NCBI RefSeq assembly: GCF_039596395.1
Contig: NZ_JBCNJT010000001.1
Span: forward strand, 903,315 to 967,314
Source: Fluviicola sp.
GTDB lineage: Bacteria > Bacteroidota > Bacteroidia > Flavobacteriales_D > Crocinitomicaceae
Direction of reading: 5' to 3'
Length of the DNA: 64,000 nt
Shown piece by piece: positions 3,184 to 10,060 of this stretch (position 1 is the stretch's first letter; each line of letters begins with the position of its first letter). A model generated the notes under the pieces. It had not been told where the DNA came from. It saw only the letters and a program-made list of their open reading frames with translations, and ran no database searches. Position numbers and translations under genes: made by a program.

Positions 3184-4011
3184 TTAAAGTTGGAAAACGA
3201 GCGGGTAAATGCACAATCGGAATAAAATCCAGCTGAGGCTTAATTTTTGACTCCAGTCTTTCAGTGCAAGCCGTCTTTTGTGCCCAAAGAACATGAATGC
3301 AACCGTTGTTCCGTAACAAACAACTGCCAGAAAGTCGGTGTGGATTCCGGTGAAGTCTAAAAATTTCAGTCCGATCCCAAAAACGAGCAGTGCAAGCGCT
3401 CCCAGGAAAGAAGTGAAGACCAGGTGCCCTAAATAATCATAACTGTTTTCCTGTCCCAGGGCAGTGAATGCCAGCCACTGAAAACCAATTTGAGCGAGTA
3501 GTAAAAGAATATCGTTTACAGGATTGAGTACCAGGTAATCAGTCAGAAAACTTTCGAAGTACCAATGAACGATCAGGTAAGTCAGATAACTCATCAGACC
3601 GATGAAAATGATTCGCCAGGTAAGAGATTTGGCAGGTTCGCATGCCACACATTCGAAGTTTCTTTTTTTAACCGGTGCGAAAATTCTCCGGTTGTAACTG
3701 AAGAGTAAATAAAGCAATTTGAGCAACCAGTTAATGGGTTTGAAATTTCCAAGAATACGTACGAGTATAAACCTTTTTCCCAGAAGAGCTACCAATCCGT
3801 CAATTCCGTAAAGAACTTCGTTTGTCTGGTGATTGAGACAGGCAATTTTTGTTTGCGCAATATTGGTATCTATGTCGTTGGGATGCGCTGCAACATATTG
3901 GTTGTAAGAAATCCGTCCGTCGGGTTCGATAATTCTGTATTTCACAAAGATGCGTGTGTACCAGCGGCACAGCGGACAATCTTCGTCGTAGAGTAGTGCA
4001 ATATTTTCCAT
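3184..4011 (-). CDS. DCC-family thiol-disulfide oxidoreductase-like membrane protein
   Basis: The N-terminus carries the DxxCPLC signature of the DCC (DUF393) family (YDEDCPLCRWYTRIFV, residues 7-22), a thioredoxin-like fold. A second Cys pair occurs in FECVACEP near residue 120. From about residue 130 the protein continues through five or six hydrophobic helices, so this is a fusion of a DCC domain to a membrane domain rather than the usual short soluble DCC protein of about 130 residues. It sits between the GbsR-like regulator and the TIGR01777 gene. A dyad resembling the one before the regulator lies 30-47 bases upstream of its start. Redox activity is plausible but unproven, and the substrate is unknown. 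Confidence 0.75.
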   Translation of the reverse strand: MENIALLYDEDCPLCRWYTRIFVKYRIIEPDGRISYNQYVAAHPNDIDTNIAQTKIACLNHQTNEVLYGIDGLVALLGKRFILVRILGNFKPINWLLKLLYLLFSYNRRIFAPVKKRNFECVACEPAKSLTWRIIFIGLMSYLTYLIVHWYFESFLTDYLVLNPVNDILLLLAQIGFQWLAFTALGQENSYDYLGHLVFTSFLGALALLVFGIGLKFLDFTGIHTDFLAVVCYGTTVAFMFFGHKRRLALKDWSQKLSLSWILFRLCIYPLVFQL

Positions 4012-4089: not shown

Positions 4090-4587
4090 CTATTTGAATA
4101 AATTCAATATTTTTCCAAAGAACACGTGTTCGTCTGCTTTCATTAAAGTGCTCGACAAAGAATCCAATCGGCTCACCAAACGTTCGATGTTTTCGATGGT
4201 AGCCACGAAGGAAATCGACTCGTAGGATTGTTCTACTTTTTTTAGTTCCGCCAAATGCTGCTGCAAAGGTTCAAGCTCTCTTCGCTTGCGTTCTTTTACA
4301 ATGCGTTTGGCCACTTCCCACATATCTTTTTCTGCCCGGAAATATTCTTTGCGGTCGCCGGCAATGCTCTCTTTGTAAATTAAATTCCAATTAGCCAATT
4401 CACGGATATTCATATTGGCATTCCCGCGTGAAATGGAAAGCCGCTCCATAATGTCTTCCGTACAAAGCGGACTGTCACTTACAATTAAAAGCGCATGGAC
4501 CTGGGCCATGGAACGATTGATTCCCCATTGAGTACCGAAGTTTCCCCATGTCTGAATGAATTGCTGCTTGGCTTGTTCTAATTCCAT
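4090..4587 (-). CDS. GbsR/MarR-like winged-helix transcriptional regulator
   Basis: This 165-residue protein is typical of the GbsR-like branch of MarR-fold regulators in Bacteroidota. It has WGNFGTQWGINRSMAQVHALLIV at residues 14-36, then the recognition region SISRGNANMNIRELANWNLI, a wing with GDRKEYFRAEKDMWEVAKRIV, and a C-terminal helical dimerisation region. Characterised GbsR proteins sense choline, but many relatives have unknown effectors. The ATG at 4587 is preceded almost immediately by a TATATTTG -7 box and a perfect 9-bp dyad, suggesting autoregulation and a very short leader. Downstream genes in the same direction encode the DCC membrane protein and the TIGR01777 protein, the likely targets. 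Confidence 0.85.
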   Translation of the reverse strand: MELEQAKQQFIQTWGNFGTQWGINRSMAQVHALLIVSDSPLCTEDIMERLSISRGNANMNIRELANWNLIYKESIAGDRKEYFRAEKDMWEVAKRIVKERKRRELEPLQQHLAELKKVEQSYESISFVATIENIERLVSRLDSLSSTLMKADEHVFFGKILNLFK

Positions 4588-4633: not shown

Positions 4634-5611
4634 TTATTTTTTCAAAATATTCAACCTCTGTTGTTTACCGTTTTGAATGAGCTGCAATTGGTACATTCCG
4701 GTAGCAAAATCTTCCATGGAAATGAACGTTGAGTGGGTATGATTGGCTGTCAGCAATAATCGTCCGTCGGGAGCATACAGGTTTAAAATTGCTTCGCCGT
4801 TAAGGGTAACTTGGAGTTGATCGGTTGCTGGATTCGGGAATGCCTGTACATTCAAAGCTTCCAGGTCTGTCAATCCTAGCGTTCCATTGATAATACCGAT
4901 CGCTTCCAGGTCAAAACCGCCTGATTCGAAAGCTGTGGGATAAGGATCGTTGATAATCATCCCGAATTGATCGGTAGTTACATGACCCGAGATCGCACCG
5001 ATTGCATCAATGACTCTGACCAATGTTACGGCAGATTTGTTCAGGTCCGGGTCGTTTGGAAGATCACTCAGATCAAAAGGAGTTCCGTAGCCGATACGGT
5101 ATTTTCCCGCCAGGTTATTGATCATTCTGCAATCCGTATAGGAAGCGTTGGAAGCCTGTGTGACTGTCTGGACTTCACTGGTAGAGGGGAAACGGAAAAA
5201 GTGAACACCGTCGGAGCTGACTTCTACGTGAGCCATTTCAATGTAATCATCCATAAATCCATTCTCGAAAATGGCAAAATCGTAACCCGGGCCATCCATA
5301 ATGAATTGGTCGAAGCTTAAGGTTGCAATGCCACTGTCTCCCAGGGAAACAACATCAGTAACGGATCCGGTTGCAGGCCCCAACGCCAGGTTCAGGTTCC
5401 CGAAACTTGCCCGGTTTGATCCGCTTACTATAATGGTGGTATCCGCAATATCCAGATAACCTCTTTGAATTGTTCCTCCGCTTGCCCATGAAACAAAACA
5501 GGAACTGTCTTTTTTTATGGCATTCGTTCCAGGGTTTCCCGGAGCAGGATGAAAACTTTGAGCATTTACAAAGCCAGGCAGGATTAAAAGGAATAGAATG
5601 AGCTTATTCAT
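4634..5611 (-). CDS. T9SS-exported surface protein, last gene of the B12 operon
   Basis: This 325-residue protein has a signal peptide (ILFLLILPGFVNAQS) and a C-terminal T9SS type A sorting domain (VQAFPNPATDQLQV, final residues LNILKK), so it is predicted to be carried across the outer membrane. The central part contains GPGYDFAIFENGF and VEVSSDGVHFFRF, seen in a family usually annotated only as cell surface protein and often found beside BtuB-like receptors; that association is from memory. Its start overlaps the upstream beta-propeller gene by 8 bases, so it belongs to the cobalamin-riboswitch operon. I infer a role in capturing corrinoid at the cell surface, but the binding function is not proven. 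Confidence 0.8.
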   Translation of the reverse strand: MNKLILFLLILPGFVNAQSFHPAPGNPGTNAIKKDSSCFVSWASGGTIQRGYLDIADTTIIVSGSNRASFGNLNLALGPATGSVTDVVSLGDSGIATLSFDQFIMDGPGYDFAIFENGFMDDYIEMAHVEVSSDGVHFFRFPSTSEVQTVTQASNASYTDCRMINNLAGKYRIGYGTPFDLSDLPNDPDLNKSAVTLVRVIDAIGAISGHVTTDQFGMIINDPYPTAFESGGFDLEAIGIINGTLGLTDLEALNVQAFPNPATDQLQVTLNGEAILNLYAPDGRLLLTANHTHSTFISMEDFATGMYQLQLIQNGKQQRLNILKK

Positions 5612-6665
5612 AGATTAAAATGCTTGTTGGGTTTAATCCCACGTTATAACTTGTTTCAAAATTGCCGTTCGCAGAAAATACATGAACCTGTCCGGTCACG
5701 GTGTAATTTTTTGCATCCAGACAATAGACTTTGTTGGTGATGTTGGAATAGTAGATACCATACAATGTCTGGATTCCGGAAGTCGAAATGTATTGCGGGT
5801 TGACAATGGTTTCCGTATTGGTATCGAAGAGCGCAATGCGGTTATTTCCCGAACTGAAATCGTGGTAAGAGATCAGGAAGTTGTTAGTGAACCGCGAAAT
5901 TCCGCTGGCATCGAATGTGAAGGATTGCGCCAGTGTGTTCGTATTGGCATTGATGCGGTGCATGCGTGAAGGAATGGAGGCGTAATCACCGCGTGTGATG
6001 ACATACACATCTCCGCCCGGGTCCGTTTGAATGGATCCGGGGTTTTTACCGACTGTGATCCGGGTGATTTCCTGTAAACTTCCCAAATCAATGACGGAAA
6101 CGGTGCTGTCGACATTCGGGAAGTTCAATCCTCCTGAATTTGCAACAAACAATTTTCCGTTGCTAACTGTGAGCCCTTCCGGGTTTGCGCCGACCTGAAT
6201 GCGATTGGTAATACTCAATGAAGCGGTGTCCAATACGTCTACAAATCCATCATAACAAGTAATGTATGCTTTCGGTCCGTAGAAGGTAATGTAACGCGGC
6301 TGTTTTGGAGTTCCGTTGGCAATCATGGAAATCTGGCTGATGCTGTTCCCAGTGGAGGCGTCGAGTATTTCCAGCGTACTGGAAACATTCACAATGACGT
6401 AAATCTTTCCTCCGTAACGCTGCATGTCGTTTCCGGTGTCGCCCAGTGAACGATTGGTTTTTTGCTCGAAAAAATTGCTCGTATAAGCGTTTTCAGAAAA
6501 ACTGTACCAACCCAAAGTAGCATTGTTTTGCTGGAACAACCCTTCGTTCAGAACGAGCATTCCATGCTGAAGCGTTTGCGGGGCTTCCGGTTCTTCCACC
6601 TTTTTCTTTTTACAGGAAAATGCGAAAAGGGCAATCACGGGTATGAGAAGAATTTTAGAGTGCAT
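5604..6665 (-). CDS. YncE/DUF5074-type beta-propeller lipoprotein (BtuG-like)
   Basis: A lipobox (ALFAFSC, Cys18) followed by four lysines and an acidic stretch marks a lipoprotein. The rest is a run of beta-propeller blades with YncE-like repeats: IYVIVNVSSTLEILDASTG, AYITCYDGFVDVLDT, LFVANSGG and TVSVIDLGSLQEITRITVG. In Bacteroides the surface lipoprotein BtuG is a propeller of this kind that binds vitamin B12 very tightly and caps BtuB. The fold, the lipoprotein signal and the place directly after a TonB receptor in a riboswitch-controlled operon support the same role here. It overlaps the receptor gene by 11 bases and the next gene by 8. BtuG orthology is inferred, not shown. Confidence 0.8.
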   Translation of the reverse strand: MHSKILLIPVIALFAFSCKKKKVEEPEAPQTLQHGMLVLNEGLFQQNNATLGWYSFSENAYTSNFFEQKTNRSLGDTGNDMQRYGGKIYVIVNVSSTLEILDASTGNSISQISMIANGTPKQPRYITFYGPKAYITCYDGFVDVLDTASLSITNRIQVGANPEGLTVSNGKLFVANSGGLNFPNVDSTVSVIDLGSLQEITRITVGKNPGSIQTDPGGDVYVITRGDYASIPSRMHRINANTNTLAQSFTFDASGISRFTNNFLISYHDFSSGNNRIALFDTNTETIVNPQYISTSGIQTLYGIYYSNITNKVYCLDAKNYTVTGQVHVFSANGNFETSYNVGLNPTSILIYE

Positions 6666-8589
6666 ATTGAAGTCTGATATTAAAATGTGTTCCCGGCATT
6701 ACAAAGTAATTGATATAACTGTATTGCCTGTTGGTAATATTATTGACGCTCAGGCGAAGGGTGAGTTCGCTGGATTTTAATTTTTGCGTGTAAGAAGCTC
6801 CTGCATCCAGTAAGAAATAGCCTTCGAGCAAATTCGACGGAATATTCTGGTTCAGTGCATAGCGCTCACCCAAATAAGATCCCAGAACGTAGAAATTCAA
6901 CCTTTTCCAGGAATAATCGAGTTCCACGCTTCCGGAGTGCAGGGGCGAATAACTCAATAGGTGTCCGTAAGTCGGGCTGAGTGGATCGCTGATGTCCTGC
7001 GTGTACTGGAAGGTATAGTTGATGCGCATTCCTAAAGTATGTTGTTTGATCTTTTTCTGGATGAATTCGGTAAATTCCACTCCCCAGGCATCGGATATCC
7101 CGATGTTTTGAATGCTCCAGATGAAGAGGTTTTTGGTCGGAATTGCCAGGATTTTGTCGTAGACATATGAATAGAACGGCTGGATCATTGTTTGAGAAAT
7201 CCCCTTTTTGAAGGGAAGTGTCAGATCGTAACGCAGCGAAGCAATGTGTGCTTTTTCAGTCCGGAGTTTGGTGTTCCCGATTTGCTGGTAGTACAGTTCG
7301 CTGAAGGAAGGCTGCCGGCAAGTATACCGGTAAACGACCCCAATCCTGTTTTTGCTTCCAAGGTCGAAACTCCAGGAAGCGGCCGGTAATAAGTTCCATT
7401 GACTGTTGAGCGTGGTGTCGCGCTTTTCAAAAACACCCTGTAGTCCCACTTGGACCAGAATTTTCCCGATGGCTTTCCATTCAATCCCCAACAGGCTTTC
7501 GGAAGTATTCCGGTAAGGGTTCCCGACCAATGTTTTTCCTTTCAATTCTTCAGAAATGAAGGAACTTCCGATCAGTAAGTCTAATTTTTCCGTGATGGAA
7601 TAAGCAGCCTGTGATTGTGCATCAAATTGGGCCGAATAATAGCGTGAATCGAGATAGCCTTGTGAATTCAGGTAAGTGGAATCCAGGTATTGAAGGTTAT
7701 TCTTTTGATAATTGACCGAAGAAAATACATTCCAGCGGTTCTTTTGGAATTGATGGTTCAAAGCTCCGCTGAGTCCGTAACCGTTTAAATATTGCGCGGC
7801 GTTGCTGTTGTAGAAGATTACTGCTCCTGCCAGTTCTTTGCGGTATTCATTTCCGGAAACCCGGAGTTGAAAGCGGTGGTATTGATTGGGTGAAAACTGA
7901 ATGGAGGCGGTCCCGAAATATTCCAGTAAACTGTTGTTTTCTCTCCGGTCTTTGATGGTTGTATTGCCGTTCAGGTAGGTGTAAGGGTAGGATCCTCCGT
8001 ATGAACGGATTTTCCCGGTTAGTGTTCCGGCCCATTTTGCAGAACGTTTTTGCAGCATCAAATAACCTTCGTATTGATCAAACGATCCGGCTTGCGCACC
8101 AAGGATAAAATTTCGCTGGTTTGTGCCTACGTACGAATGAACGGATTCGACATTGACAACCACTCCGGCAAGTTTTGCATGAATGGGGATTTGAGTGCGG
8201 GTAGGGGAAAGGGTGATTAATTCCAGTTTTTCAATGAAATCAACAGGGAAGGAACTAAGATCTGCCTGGCCGCTTTGTGTGGTCGAAACGGAAGAATGGT
8301 CCTGGACCAAAGCGGTATGTCCGGCGCCCAAACTGCGAAAACTGACGGTTTTCAGTCCGCCGACATCTCCGTAGTTTTTAATTTGAAGTCCGGGAAGCAG
8401 GTTCAGGATCTGTCCCAGGTCATTGGCTAATTTGTTCTGGATTTTATCTTTCGATAATTCGATCTGAATGCTGTTTTCCTTTTCGTTGACCGGAGAAATA
8501 ACCACCTCTTCAATAGGTTTAACCTCCTGCCCGAAAACCGGACAAGAGGTTGCAATCAACAGGGTTGGTATGGAAAACCGTAAAAACAA
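6655..8589 (-). CDS. btuB: TonB-dependent receptor, probable cobalamin transporter (BtuB-like)
   Basis: At 644 residues this is within the size of BtuB-type receptors. A signal peptide ends near CPVFGQE. The plug domain follows, with VSFRSLGAGHTALVQDH (the ILxDG-like region) and the FIEKLELI segment. The remainder is a 22-strand-type barrel rich in aromatic residues, ending in the outer-membrane signature FNIRLQYAL. There is no carboxypeptidase-like N-terminal extension, so it is not a SusC-type protein. The start is TTG, directly abutting the stop of the upstream gene, so translation is probably coupled. The riboswitch upstream of the operon is the main reason to assign cobalamin as the substrate; the receptor sequence alone would not decide it. 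Confidence 0.8.
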   Translation of the reverse strand: MFLRFSIPTLLIATSCPVFGQEVKPIEEVVISPVNEKENSIQIELSKDKIQNKLANDLGQILNLLPGLQIKNYGDVGGLKTVSFRSLGAGHTALVQDHSSVSTTQSGQADLSSFPVDFIEKLELITLSPTRTQIPIHAKLAGVVVNVESVHSYVGTNQRNFILGAQAGSFDQYEGYLMLQKRSAKWAGTLTGKIRSYGGSYPYTYLNGNTTIKDRRENNSLLEYFGTASIQFSPNQYHRFQLRVSGNEYRKELAGAVIFYNSNAAQYLNGYGLSGALNHQFQKNRWNVFSSVNYQKNNLQYLDSTYLNSQGYLDSRYYSAQFDAQSQAAYSITEKLDLLIGSSFISEELKGKTLVGNPYRNTSESLLGIEWKAIGKILVQVGLQGVFEKRDTTLNSQWNLLPAASWSFDLGSKNRIGVVYRYTCRQPSFSELYYQQIGNTKLRTEKAHIASLRYDLTLPFKKGISQTMIQPFYSYVYDKILAIPTKNLFIWSIQNIGISDAWGVEFTEFIQKKIKQHTLGMRINYTFQYTQDISDPLSPTYGHLLSYSPLHSGSVELDYSWKRLNFYVLGSYLGERYALNQNIPSNLLEGYFLLDAGASYTQKLKSSELTLRLSVNNITNRQYSYINYFVMPGTHFNIRLQYAL

Positions 8590-9552
8590 TTAGATCTTGC
8601 TGATGCGAGTTCGTGCAATTCCTTCGGAAGTGCTTGTTTCAATCAGGTACGTTCCGGCCTGGACCGCGCTTAAATCAATTTCCTGGATTCCGTTTGTTTG
8701 TTGGGATAAGATCAATTCTCCCGACAAAGCGTAAACATTGATTTGTCCGTTGGCAGATTTAACCGTGAATTTTCCCGTAGAAGGGTTCGGATAAACTTCC
8801 TGGCTCGCAAGGCTTAATTTGTTCAGGGAAGCGGTTCCGTATGTGATATTATCCAAGGCAAAATAAGCCGGAGTATTGATTCCCCAGGAACCTACATCGG
8901 AAGATTCCAGTTCGAATTCCAGGAACTGAACTTCTCCCAGTGAAGTCAGGTCAACAGTTTGCCAGGTATTTACAATATAATCTTGTGCATTAGTTGCAAA
9001 ACGGTAATCTGCCAGGTAGAAAACAACCGTATCCGTTGTGTTGCTTTGAGCATCTTTCCCGATGATCAATAAACGGAACCAGTCCTCACCGTTTGTTCCG
9101 TCAGGATTTCCCTGAGCATTATTCGGTGAACCGAATACTTTCCCGAAAGCATCACCGTCGCGCATGGAAATAGCAGCGTATGTGGTATTTGTCAACTGAA
9201 TGCTGCTCAATACTTTTTCAGATCCGAAATCGATGGATGAGTTCCCGTAGTTGACAGCATAATTCTGGCTTCCGTTTCCTCCTGTTCCGGTAAAAGCGGA
9301 AAAGTCGTTGGTGTATCCGGCAGTAGTGACATCTGTGGAACTGGAGTAGATAAATCCTCCGGACCAGTAGCCGGAATAGCTGTTTTCAAAATAAACTCCA
9401 CCGGAAGTAAATCCTCCTGTAGAATCTGAACCGTCCCAATGTGTGTTGGGAGCAAGTGTTAAGTCGTCGAACGTAACAACCGTTTGGGCTTGTGTGTATT
9501 GGATGCAGAATACACTAACTGCAAGTAACATTTTTTTCATTGCCTTAAGCAT
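8590..9552 (-). CDS. DUF4465 T9SS surface protein (possible corrinoid-binding, BtuH-like)
   Basis: A signal peptide (ending YTQAQT) precedes a DUF4465 domain (residues 25-240), recognisable from FDDLTLAPNTHWDGSD, GGFIYSSSTDVTTAGY, GNGSQNYAVNYG and the calcium-site-like SWGINTPAYFALDNITYG. A T9SS type A tail (YPNPSTGKFTV, ending RTRISKI) follows. DUF4465 proteins often lie in B12-regulated loci, and I recall that some (BtuH in Bacteroides) bind B12 at the cell surface as lipoproteins. Here export by T9SS replaces lipidation. It is the first gene after the riboswitch, with a leader of about 100 bases. An alternative start at 9540 (MKKMLLAV) gives the same mature protein. Confidence 0.85.
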   Translation of the reverse strand: MLKAMKKMLLAVSVFCIQYTQAQTVVTFDDLTLAPNTHWDGSDSTGGFTSGGVYFENSYSGYWSGGFIYSSSTDVTTAGYTNDFSAFTGTGGNGSQNYAVNYGNSSIDFGSEKVLSSIQLTNTTYAAISMRDGDAFGKVFGSPNNAQGNPDGTNGEDWFRLLIIGKDAQSNTTDTVVFYLADYRFATNAQDYIVNTWQTVDLTSLGEVQFLEFELESSDVGSWGINTPAYFALDNITYGTASLNKLSLASQEVYPNPSTGKFTVKSANGQINVYALSGELILSQQTNGIQEIDLSAVQAGTYLIETSTSEGIARTRISKI

Positions 9553-9659
9553 TTAAATGTGAATAAATAAAAGCAAATGAAAAAATCAGAGAATAAGAAC
9601 AAACTGAGAGAAGGGTTCCCTCATATTCGAACTCGACTTTAATCTGAAGTCTTCATTCA

Positions 9660-9838
9660 ATTCATCGTTCCAGGCAGGTATTCTGACTTCTCTCCGGTTA
9701 CTTCTCCTTCCCATTCCCGCAGGTGCGGGATCAGTGGATTTATTGAAGACCGTTTGATAAGAGTTACAGCTGCAGATACAGTTTCGGATTCTCACCGAAT
9801 TCCCTATTGTCTTTTGTAAACTTACAATCGAACCTAAA
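9660..9838 (-). promoter_or_regulatory. Cobalamin (B12) riboswitch
   Basis: On the minus strand the conserved core GGGAATTCGGTGAGAATCCG lies at 9785-9804. It is followed by AAACTGTATCTGCAGCTGTAA, and the 3' element GTCAGAATACCTGCC lies at 9673-9687. These are the signature blocks of the cobalamin riboswitch (B12 box). It sits between a TAnnTTTG promoter and the DUF4465/BtuB/propeller operon, and should switch that operon off when adenosyl- or another cobalamin is abundant. The exact ends and the expression-platform mechanism cannot be fixed by eye. Confidence 0.9.
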
Positions 9839-9844
9839 ACGGGG

Positions 9845-9874
9845 CAAAGGTATCTTTTTTTTGTGAATTGCAAA
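9845..9874 (-). promoter_or_regulatory. Promoter of the B12 operon
   Basis: The minus strand shows TTTG at 9874-9871, an 18-base spacer, then TACCTTTG at 9852-9845, matching the Bacteroidota -33/-7 pattern. The predicted transcript start falls just before the riboswitch. Confidence 0.7.
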
Positions 9875-9906
9875 TTGCGAATGACGGATGCCTGATTATT
9901 TTGGAT

Positions 9907-10060
9907 GTTCAAATGTTCAAATGTTCAAATGTTCAAATACTTTTTTAAATAATTGTTTGCATCCATTTGATCATTGATCAATTGATAATTATCTTTTCAA
10001 TTTTCAATTCATTGAACTTTTGAACTGTTTTGAACCTTTTCAACCTTCTTCACATTCACC
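9907..10060. repeat. GTTCAAA/TTTGAAC intergenic hairpin 1, with four tandem 8-mers
   Basis: The left arm is four perfect tandem copies of GTTCAAAT (9907-9938). About 70 bases later the right arm carries the complementary words TTGAACTTTTGAAC and TTTTGAACC (about 10013-10041). The centre is AT-rich with TGATCATTGATCA. It fills the gap between the divergent B12 operon and the TPR gene. It is one of at least seven such elements in the window. Confidence 0.6.

Follow-up and report, generated by a model that had tools for sequence, protein, structure and literature searches.

The BtuBGHJ system of gut Bacteroides captures B12 at the cell surface. The fold of BtuH differs from that of BtuJ/DUF4465, and the residues Asn399 and Phe401 of BtuH2 contact the phosphate and the lower ligand of B12 (PMC8941943). 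In B. theta, the BtuH domain is fused to BtuG1 (PMC10404256), and the DUF4465 family has been assigned to BtuJ (PMC12751083). The binding of B12 by DUF4465 proteins is already known, as it was demonstrated for eight diverse members including Fluta from Fluviicola taffensis; the same work put the share of lipoproteins among DUF4465 proteins at over 70% and called the remainder periplasmic, with the type IX secretion system (T9SS) unmentioned (PMC13398666).

The stretch of DNA analysed here, called the window (64,000 nucleotides of a Fluviicola genome), has on its minus strand an operon in the order promoter, riboswitch, J, B, G and H. It probably serves to scavenge cobalamin in the manner of the BtuBG operons of Bacteroides, with the capture proteins J and H routed through the T9SS. 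Its features, in positions of the window, are listed below.

9845-9874, minus strand: Bacteroidota-type promoter pattern TTTG-N18-TACCTTTG, a script pattern match only
9656-9852, minus strand: cobalamin riboswitch RF00174 (cmscan 89.7 bits, gathering cut-off 31.5, E 7.3e-21)
9605-9623, minus strand: terminator-like hairpin with a T-rich tail, between the aptamer and J, from a consensus scan
8590-9552, minus strand: J gene, DUF4465 protein with a T9SS tail
8596-8796, minus strand: T9SS type A sorting domain of J, residues 253-319 (TIGR04183 42.5 bits, PF18962 43.3 bits)
6655-8589, minus strand: B gene, BtuB-type TonB-dependent cobalamin receptor, TTG start
5604-6665, minus strand: G gene, BtuG-type beta-propeller surface lipoprotein, lipobox AFSC
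4634-5611, minus strand: H gene, 325 aa, predicted secreted protein of the BtuH superfamily with a T9SS tail
4892-5554, minus strand: BtuH-like domain of H, residues 20-240 (AlphaFold2 pLDDT 93.1, pTM 0.92)
5255-5269, minus strand: FENGF motif of H, residues 115-119, aligned with GNAF of BtuH2
4637-4840, minus strand: T9SS type A sorting domain of H, residues 258-325 (TIGR04183 31.7 bits, cut-off 23)

The genes are tightly packed: the J stop abuts the B start, and there are overlaps of 11 bp between B and G and of 8 bp between G and H. The riboswitch is the sole Rfam match within the 64-kb window and is aligned over its full length (RF00174 model positions 1-189, cmscan). The promoter pattern occurs five times across both strands of the window and is weak evidence on its own; the copy listed coincides with the riboswitch's 5' edge. 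An earlier sequence-only reading of this DNA had described a promoter, a B12 riboswitch and four abutting or overlapping genes; this description is borne out by the gene coordinates and by the covariance-model search it proposed, which returned the full-length aptamer far above the gathering cut-off. The hairpin between the aptamer and J is a possible expression platform, suggestive only, as comparable site numbers appear in shuffled sequence. Just upstream of the promoter lies a short tandem repeat of TGTTCAAA-like units (window 9905-9940). Downstream of H, a MarR-type regulator (4090-4587, minus strand) begins 46 bp past the gene and is accompanied by a DCC1-like protein (3184-4011, minus strand). 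Both stay beside H in most Fluviicola-like relatives and were not found at the more distant H loci scanned; hence they are treated as neighbours rather than as parts of the operon.

The core of the operon resembles one solved complex. The nearest solved protein to B is BtuB1 (PDB 8BLW_A, E 4.5e-52, residues 40-638), and B carries a TonB plug and a match to the TonB-B12 receptor model TIGR01779 of 64 bits, which is under the equivalog cut-off of 600. Likewise, the nearest solved protein to G, a DUF5074/YVTN propeller whose lipobox is as in Bacteroides, is the BtuG1 propeller (G-domain of 8BLW_B, E 6.4e-70, residues 33-350). Since both match partner chains of 8BLW, B and G are regarded as a BtuB1-BtuG1-type pair.

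J matches PF14717 (DUF4465) with 173.6 bits against a cut-off of 25, and in the PDB it matches 9FCT, the BtuJ1 of B. theta (E 1.8e-21). It has a type-I-like signal peptide without a lipobox, and it retains the HI-loop motif NTPAYF (INTPAYF; family form G/N-TPAYF), which holds the key B12-binding tyrosine. The sequence-only reading had taken DUF4465 to be BtuH-related. This is wrong, as the 9FCT match and the literature place DUF4465 in the BtuJ family (PMC12751083, PMC13398666). J would thus be a BtuJ-type B12-binding protein, to judge from the cobamide binding published for family members. There is a single DUF4465 gene in the genome of the window, and its relatives are Fluviicola; hence Fluta is an ortholog of J, or possibly J itself.

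The identity of H is less apparent. Pfam detects the tail of this protein and no other domain, the family being without a Pfam model, and the tail scores 26.3 bits with PF18962, just under the cut-off of 27. Relatives of H were gathered from 31 loci, and further ones from a sample of 395 Bacteroidota genomes, 48 of which hold the family (nine close members, with the own genome included, and 39 distant). A single-sequence search of H against the PDB gave no match, and a profile of the close relatives only gave T9SS tails and nothing else. The link to BtuH emerged only once the distant relatives had entered the profile. Across the whole PDB, the profile of close and distant relatives together matches one protein, through the C-terminal BtuH domain of BtuG1 (8BLW_B, E 2.1e-5); the distant-relative profile finds this domain again together with BtuH2 (7BIZ, E 0.29). 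Similarly, profile-profile comparison (hhalign) of the H family with seven Bacteroidales BtuH-type domains gives 97.5% probability over 52 columns. The AlphaFold model of the H domain, whose input alignment held no BtuH sequence, has 7BIZ, 8BLW and 7BIZ as its top three matches in the whole PDB (E 3.6e-4, 6.2e-4 and 1.2e-3), and 7BIZ_B and 8BLW_B are the only matches at E < 0.001. The Foldseek matches of the full-length H model, to jelly-roll and Ig enzymes, proved misleading and were set aside in favour of the domain-only model. On the strength of the profile searches and the confident AlphaFold model, H is a distant member of the BtuH superfamily. The proposal of the sequence-only reading that the 4634 protein represents a further B12-binding family therefore stands in part: H looks like a B12-capture protein, though one that is not wholly new, as it falls within the BtuH superfamily (8BLW_B, 7BIZ). 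Overall, what that reading described is real and was mostly interpreted correctly, with the labels BtuH and BtuJ exchanged (9FCT for J, 8BLW/7BIZ for H).

The relationship of H to BtuH is distant: the TM-score is only about 0.42, and detectable sequence similarity is limited to about 52-70 residues. The aligned block includes the FENGF motif, where the equivalents of BtuH2 Asn399 and Phe401 are invariant (Asn) or nearly so (Phe) in 27 close relatives; the BtuH2 numbering was placed by a single offset, which fits the residue types of all eight published contacts. The other six contacts (Gln333, His476, Tyr510, Trp511, Trp577 and Leu578) fall in regions that are not alignable with H. For these reasons the way in which H binds B12 may differ from that of BtuH, its ligand may be another corrinoid, or it may not bind at all. 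The last case can be put more concretely, with H as an operon accessory (for instance for docking, as a spacer or as a vesicle factor) that has the BtuH fold and has lost cobamide binding. The alignment of the Asn399/Phe401 block and of no other part of the BtuH2 site would agree with such a loss, and there are precedents in the B. theta loci, where BtuL and BtuK2 did not bind B12 and a vesicle role was proposed for BtuL (PMC12751083). However, the H family keeps 47 invariant columns among 27 relatives across Bacteroidota, the aligned Asn included, and it persists next to cobalamin riboswitches and occurs fused to DUF4465, as set out below; a non-binding H is accordingly rated unlikely.

The association of H with B12 genes is seen well outside the window. 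A cobalamin riboswitch lies upstream on the same strand in 25 of the 28 H-family loci scanned, which is every intact one (25/25), as the contigs of the other three end before the expected riboswitch position. In the independent sample of genomes, 6/8 close and 20/39 distant members have a same-strand riboswitch no more than 6 kb upstream, where the density of riboswitches, for a genome size taken as 3.2 Mb, would lead one to expect about 0.015 (close) and 0.04 (distant); as the sampled genomes are related, these counts are not independent events. About half of the distant members are without a nearby riboswitch, many, not all, of them on fragmented contigs. The 4634 family thus does occur together with cobalamin riboswitches, a link that the sequence-only reading had suggested checking. 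The full order riboswitch-J-B-G-H recurs in L001, L002, L003, L013 and L006, while L004 and L005 agree as far as their contigs reach. Related Fluviicola-like genomes preserve this order, as does one more Flavobacteriales MAG, so the arrangement is more than chance. One of these loci (L003, CP034120.1) is named Glaciecola amylolytica, after a gammaproteobacterial genus; it has the entire operon with 72% protein identity to Fluviicola, and the name is probably wrong.

The J and H genes also adjoin in loci L022 and L027, and in a member of the Cytophagales (L024) they form a single protein with DUF4465 at residues 67-237, then the H domain, then the T9SS tail. The H-type domain is therefore fused to two different B12 proteins, DUF4465 in L024 and BtuG1 in B. 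theta, which is strong evidence of a shared role. It could be argued that J and H are surface proteins of unrelated function whose genes lie downstream of a B12 riboswitch by chance, since at least 150 proteins of the genome have T9SS tails and a T9SS neighbour is not rare. Yet DUF4465 is a demonstrated B12-binding family (PMC13398666), and synteny, fusion and riboswitch linkage extend across orders, which leaves chance a very improbable explanation.

Some further arrangements were observed among the H-family loci. In L059 (1309-3429), a distant H relative stands directly behind a cobalamin riboswitch and is followed at once by a gene for a TonB-dependent receptor, whose plug resembles that of the BtuB of the window (YGGYAGLKTxSxRxL). 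In the Bacteroidales loci L007, L009, L011, L015, L017, L020 and L025, the H domain lies behind repeats with the consensus YWVGxGSNxxVVxVxW. These repeats match DUF4430 weakly (E 0.004 in L009), a domain related to transcobalamin, and could be an additional B12-binding module controlled by the same riboswitches.

A T9SS type A substrate may stay anchored or be shed, and TIGR04183 tails are generally cleaved off as the protein is joined to A-LPS. The sorting domains of both J and H exceed the TIGR04183 cut-off of 23, and the signal peptides of both are without a lipobox. The own genome encodes the T9SS translocon SprA (2384 bits). In a survey of 17 Bacteroidota DUF4465 proteins (lipobox by pattern, tails by HMM), 11 have a T9SS tail and 6 a lipobox, while none has both and none has neither. 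Among the close H relatives, tails are found in 23/27, some of the sequences being incomplete, and in three more as full-length copies; the one close relative without a tail (L026) starts with a lipoprotein signal, AAAC. The two routes hence alternate, as lipobox and tail never meet in a DUF4465 protein and the lipoprotein signal of L026 replaces the tail of the H family. This supports the sequence-only reading on two points: a BtuB/BtuG operon that is regulated by B12 and includes two proteins with T9SS tails, for which the riboswitch, the 8BLW matches and the TIGR04183 tails speak, and T9SS export in place of lipoprotein anchoring. In these lineages, T9SS export would replace lipid anchoring, with the surface location itself predicted. 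It follows that the T9SS-tailed DUF4465 proteins found here should be secreted or surface-bound and not periplasmic. Within the open-licence literature searched, no publication was found that joins the T9SS to B12 capture.

The tails of J and H could equally lead to release into the medium. J and H would then be soluble B12 binders, not fixed to the cell surface, that work in a siderophore-like way. Such release would suit the want of a lipobox in either protein and the shedding known for type A substrates, and BtuJ of B. theta works from vesicles (PMC12751083). On the other hand, the usual A-LPS attachment of TIGR04183 proteins, the cost of loss by diffusion in dilute habitats and the lipid anchoring of G make release of both proteins possible but rather improbable.

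Under the preferred reading of a T9SS-routed scavenging operon, plentiful B12 would let the riboswitch repress the operon, as the class of the riboswitch implies. Under B12 scarcity, the cell would make the BtuB importer, the lipid-anchored lid BtuG, and the capture proteins J and H. The role of BtuG as the lid of BtuB is suggested by close homology to the solved BtuB1G1 complex. Sec would carry J and H across the inner membrane and the T9SS across the outer one; going by their sorting tails, they would end attached to surface A-LPS or released. Outside the cell they would bind cobamides, an activity published for the DUF4465 family and presumed for H, and cobamide would pass from J and H to BtuG and then to BtuB.

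The genome has two other cobalamin riboswitches. One (G000 contig C3:327355-327546, plus strand, 112.6 bits) lies directly upstream of a 649-aa protein (L077:633-2579) with a propeller-like N-terminal part, HYR repeats and a T9SS tail. This protein is a candidate for a further T9SS-exported B12 protein; its sequence has no detectable similarity to BtuG or to any solved structure. The third, weaker riboswitch (G000 contig C1:1774007-1774150, minus strand, L078 about 9008-9151, 63 bits) precedes small genes, the first of which encodes an 82-aa cysteine-rich protein.

The H family also touches a lipoprotein family of Leptospira. NCBIfam NF033170 (LIC_13355 family lipoprotein) is matched by 16/16 distant and 19/27 close H relatives examined, with scores far under the cut-off (up to 38 of 120 bits, single scans); hence the H family comprises relatives of NF033170 and not members. 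The literature describes LIC_13355 as a surface lipoprotein that binds laminin and plasminogen, with B12 unmentioned (PMC11891782), and the published riboswitches of L. interrogans lie near LIC12374 and LIC20135, not LIC13355 (PMC3953431). A B12 role for LIC_13355 is only a hypothesis. It is doubtful that H defines a large unnamed superfamily of BtuH-like cobamide-capture proteins, across phyla and anchoring systems, in which LIC_13355 is included and primarily captures B12. Searches of plasmids for H relatives found none.

The Fluviicola operon would be a variant of the Bacteroides BtuBGHJ system, with B12 binding and a surface location expected for J and H. Surface B12 capture, known from gut Bacteroides, would thereby reach into free-living Flavobacteriales and further Bacteroidota, and its capture modules would be able to move between lipoprotein export and the T9SS as routes of delivery to the surface. 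The variant would also correct the published view of non-lipoprotein DUF4465 proteins as periplasmic, supply a widely distributed protein family with a function that can be tested, and raise a new question about a Leptospira surface lipoprotein.

The comparison with known systems can be summarized as follows. Like B12 locus 1 of B. theta (BtuB1, BtuG1 = BtuGH, BtuH1, BtuJ1, BtuK1/2; 8BLW, 9FCT), the Fluviicola operon has cobalamin riboswitch control, a BtuB1-/BtuG1-type core, a BtuJ and a BtuH-type domain. It differs in that J and H have T9SS tails rather than lipoboxes, the order is J-B-G-H, and H is a separate, highly diverged gene that adjoins and overlaps btuG instead of being fused to it; no BtuK gene was seen in the operon, whereas the B. 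theta locus has BtuK1/2. J belongs with the DUF4465/BtuJ family (IPR027828, PF14717) by its full domain match and the NTPAYF loop, and by its sorting tail it is the T9SS-exported form; BtuJ of B. theta is lipid-anchored, and the anchor varies among members and does not define the family. The LIC_13355 family shares a core block with the H family, while the Leptospira protein is a lipoprotein. BtuH (PDB 7BIZ) is the top structural match of H in the whole PDB, and the two are linked by profile similarity, the Asn399/Phe401 block and a B12-locus context. The domain of H is shorter (about 220 residues against about 270) with little identity elsewhere, and H is without PKD/Ig domains and carries a T9SS tail where BtuH has a lipid anchor.
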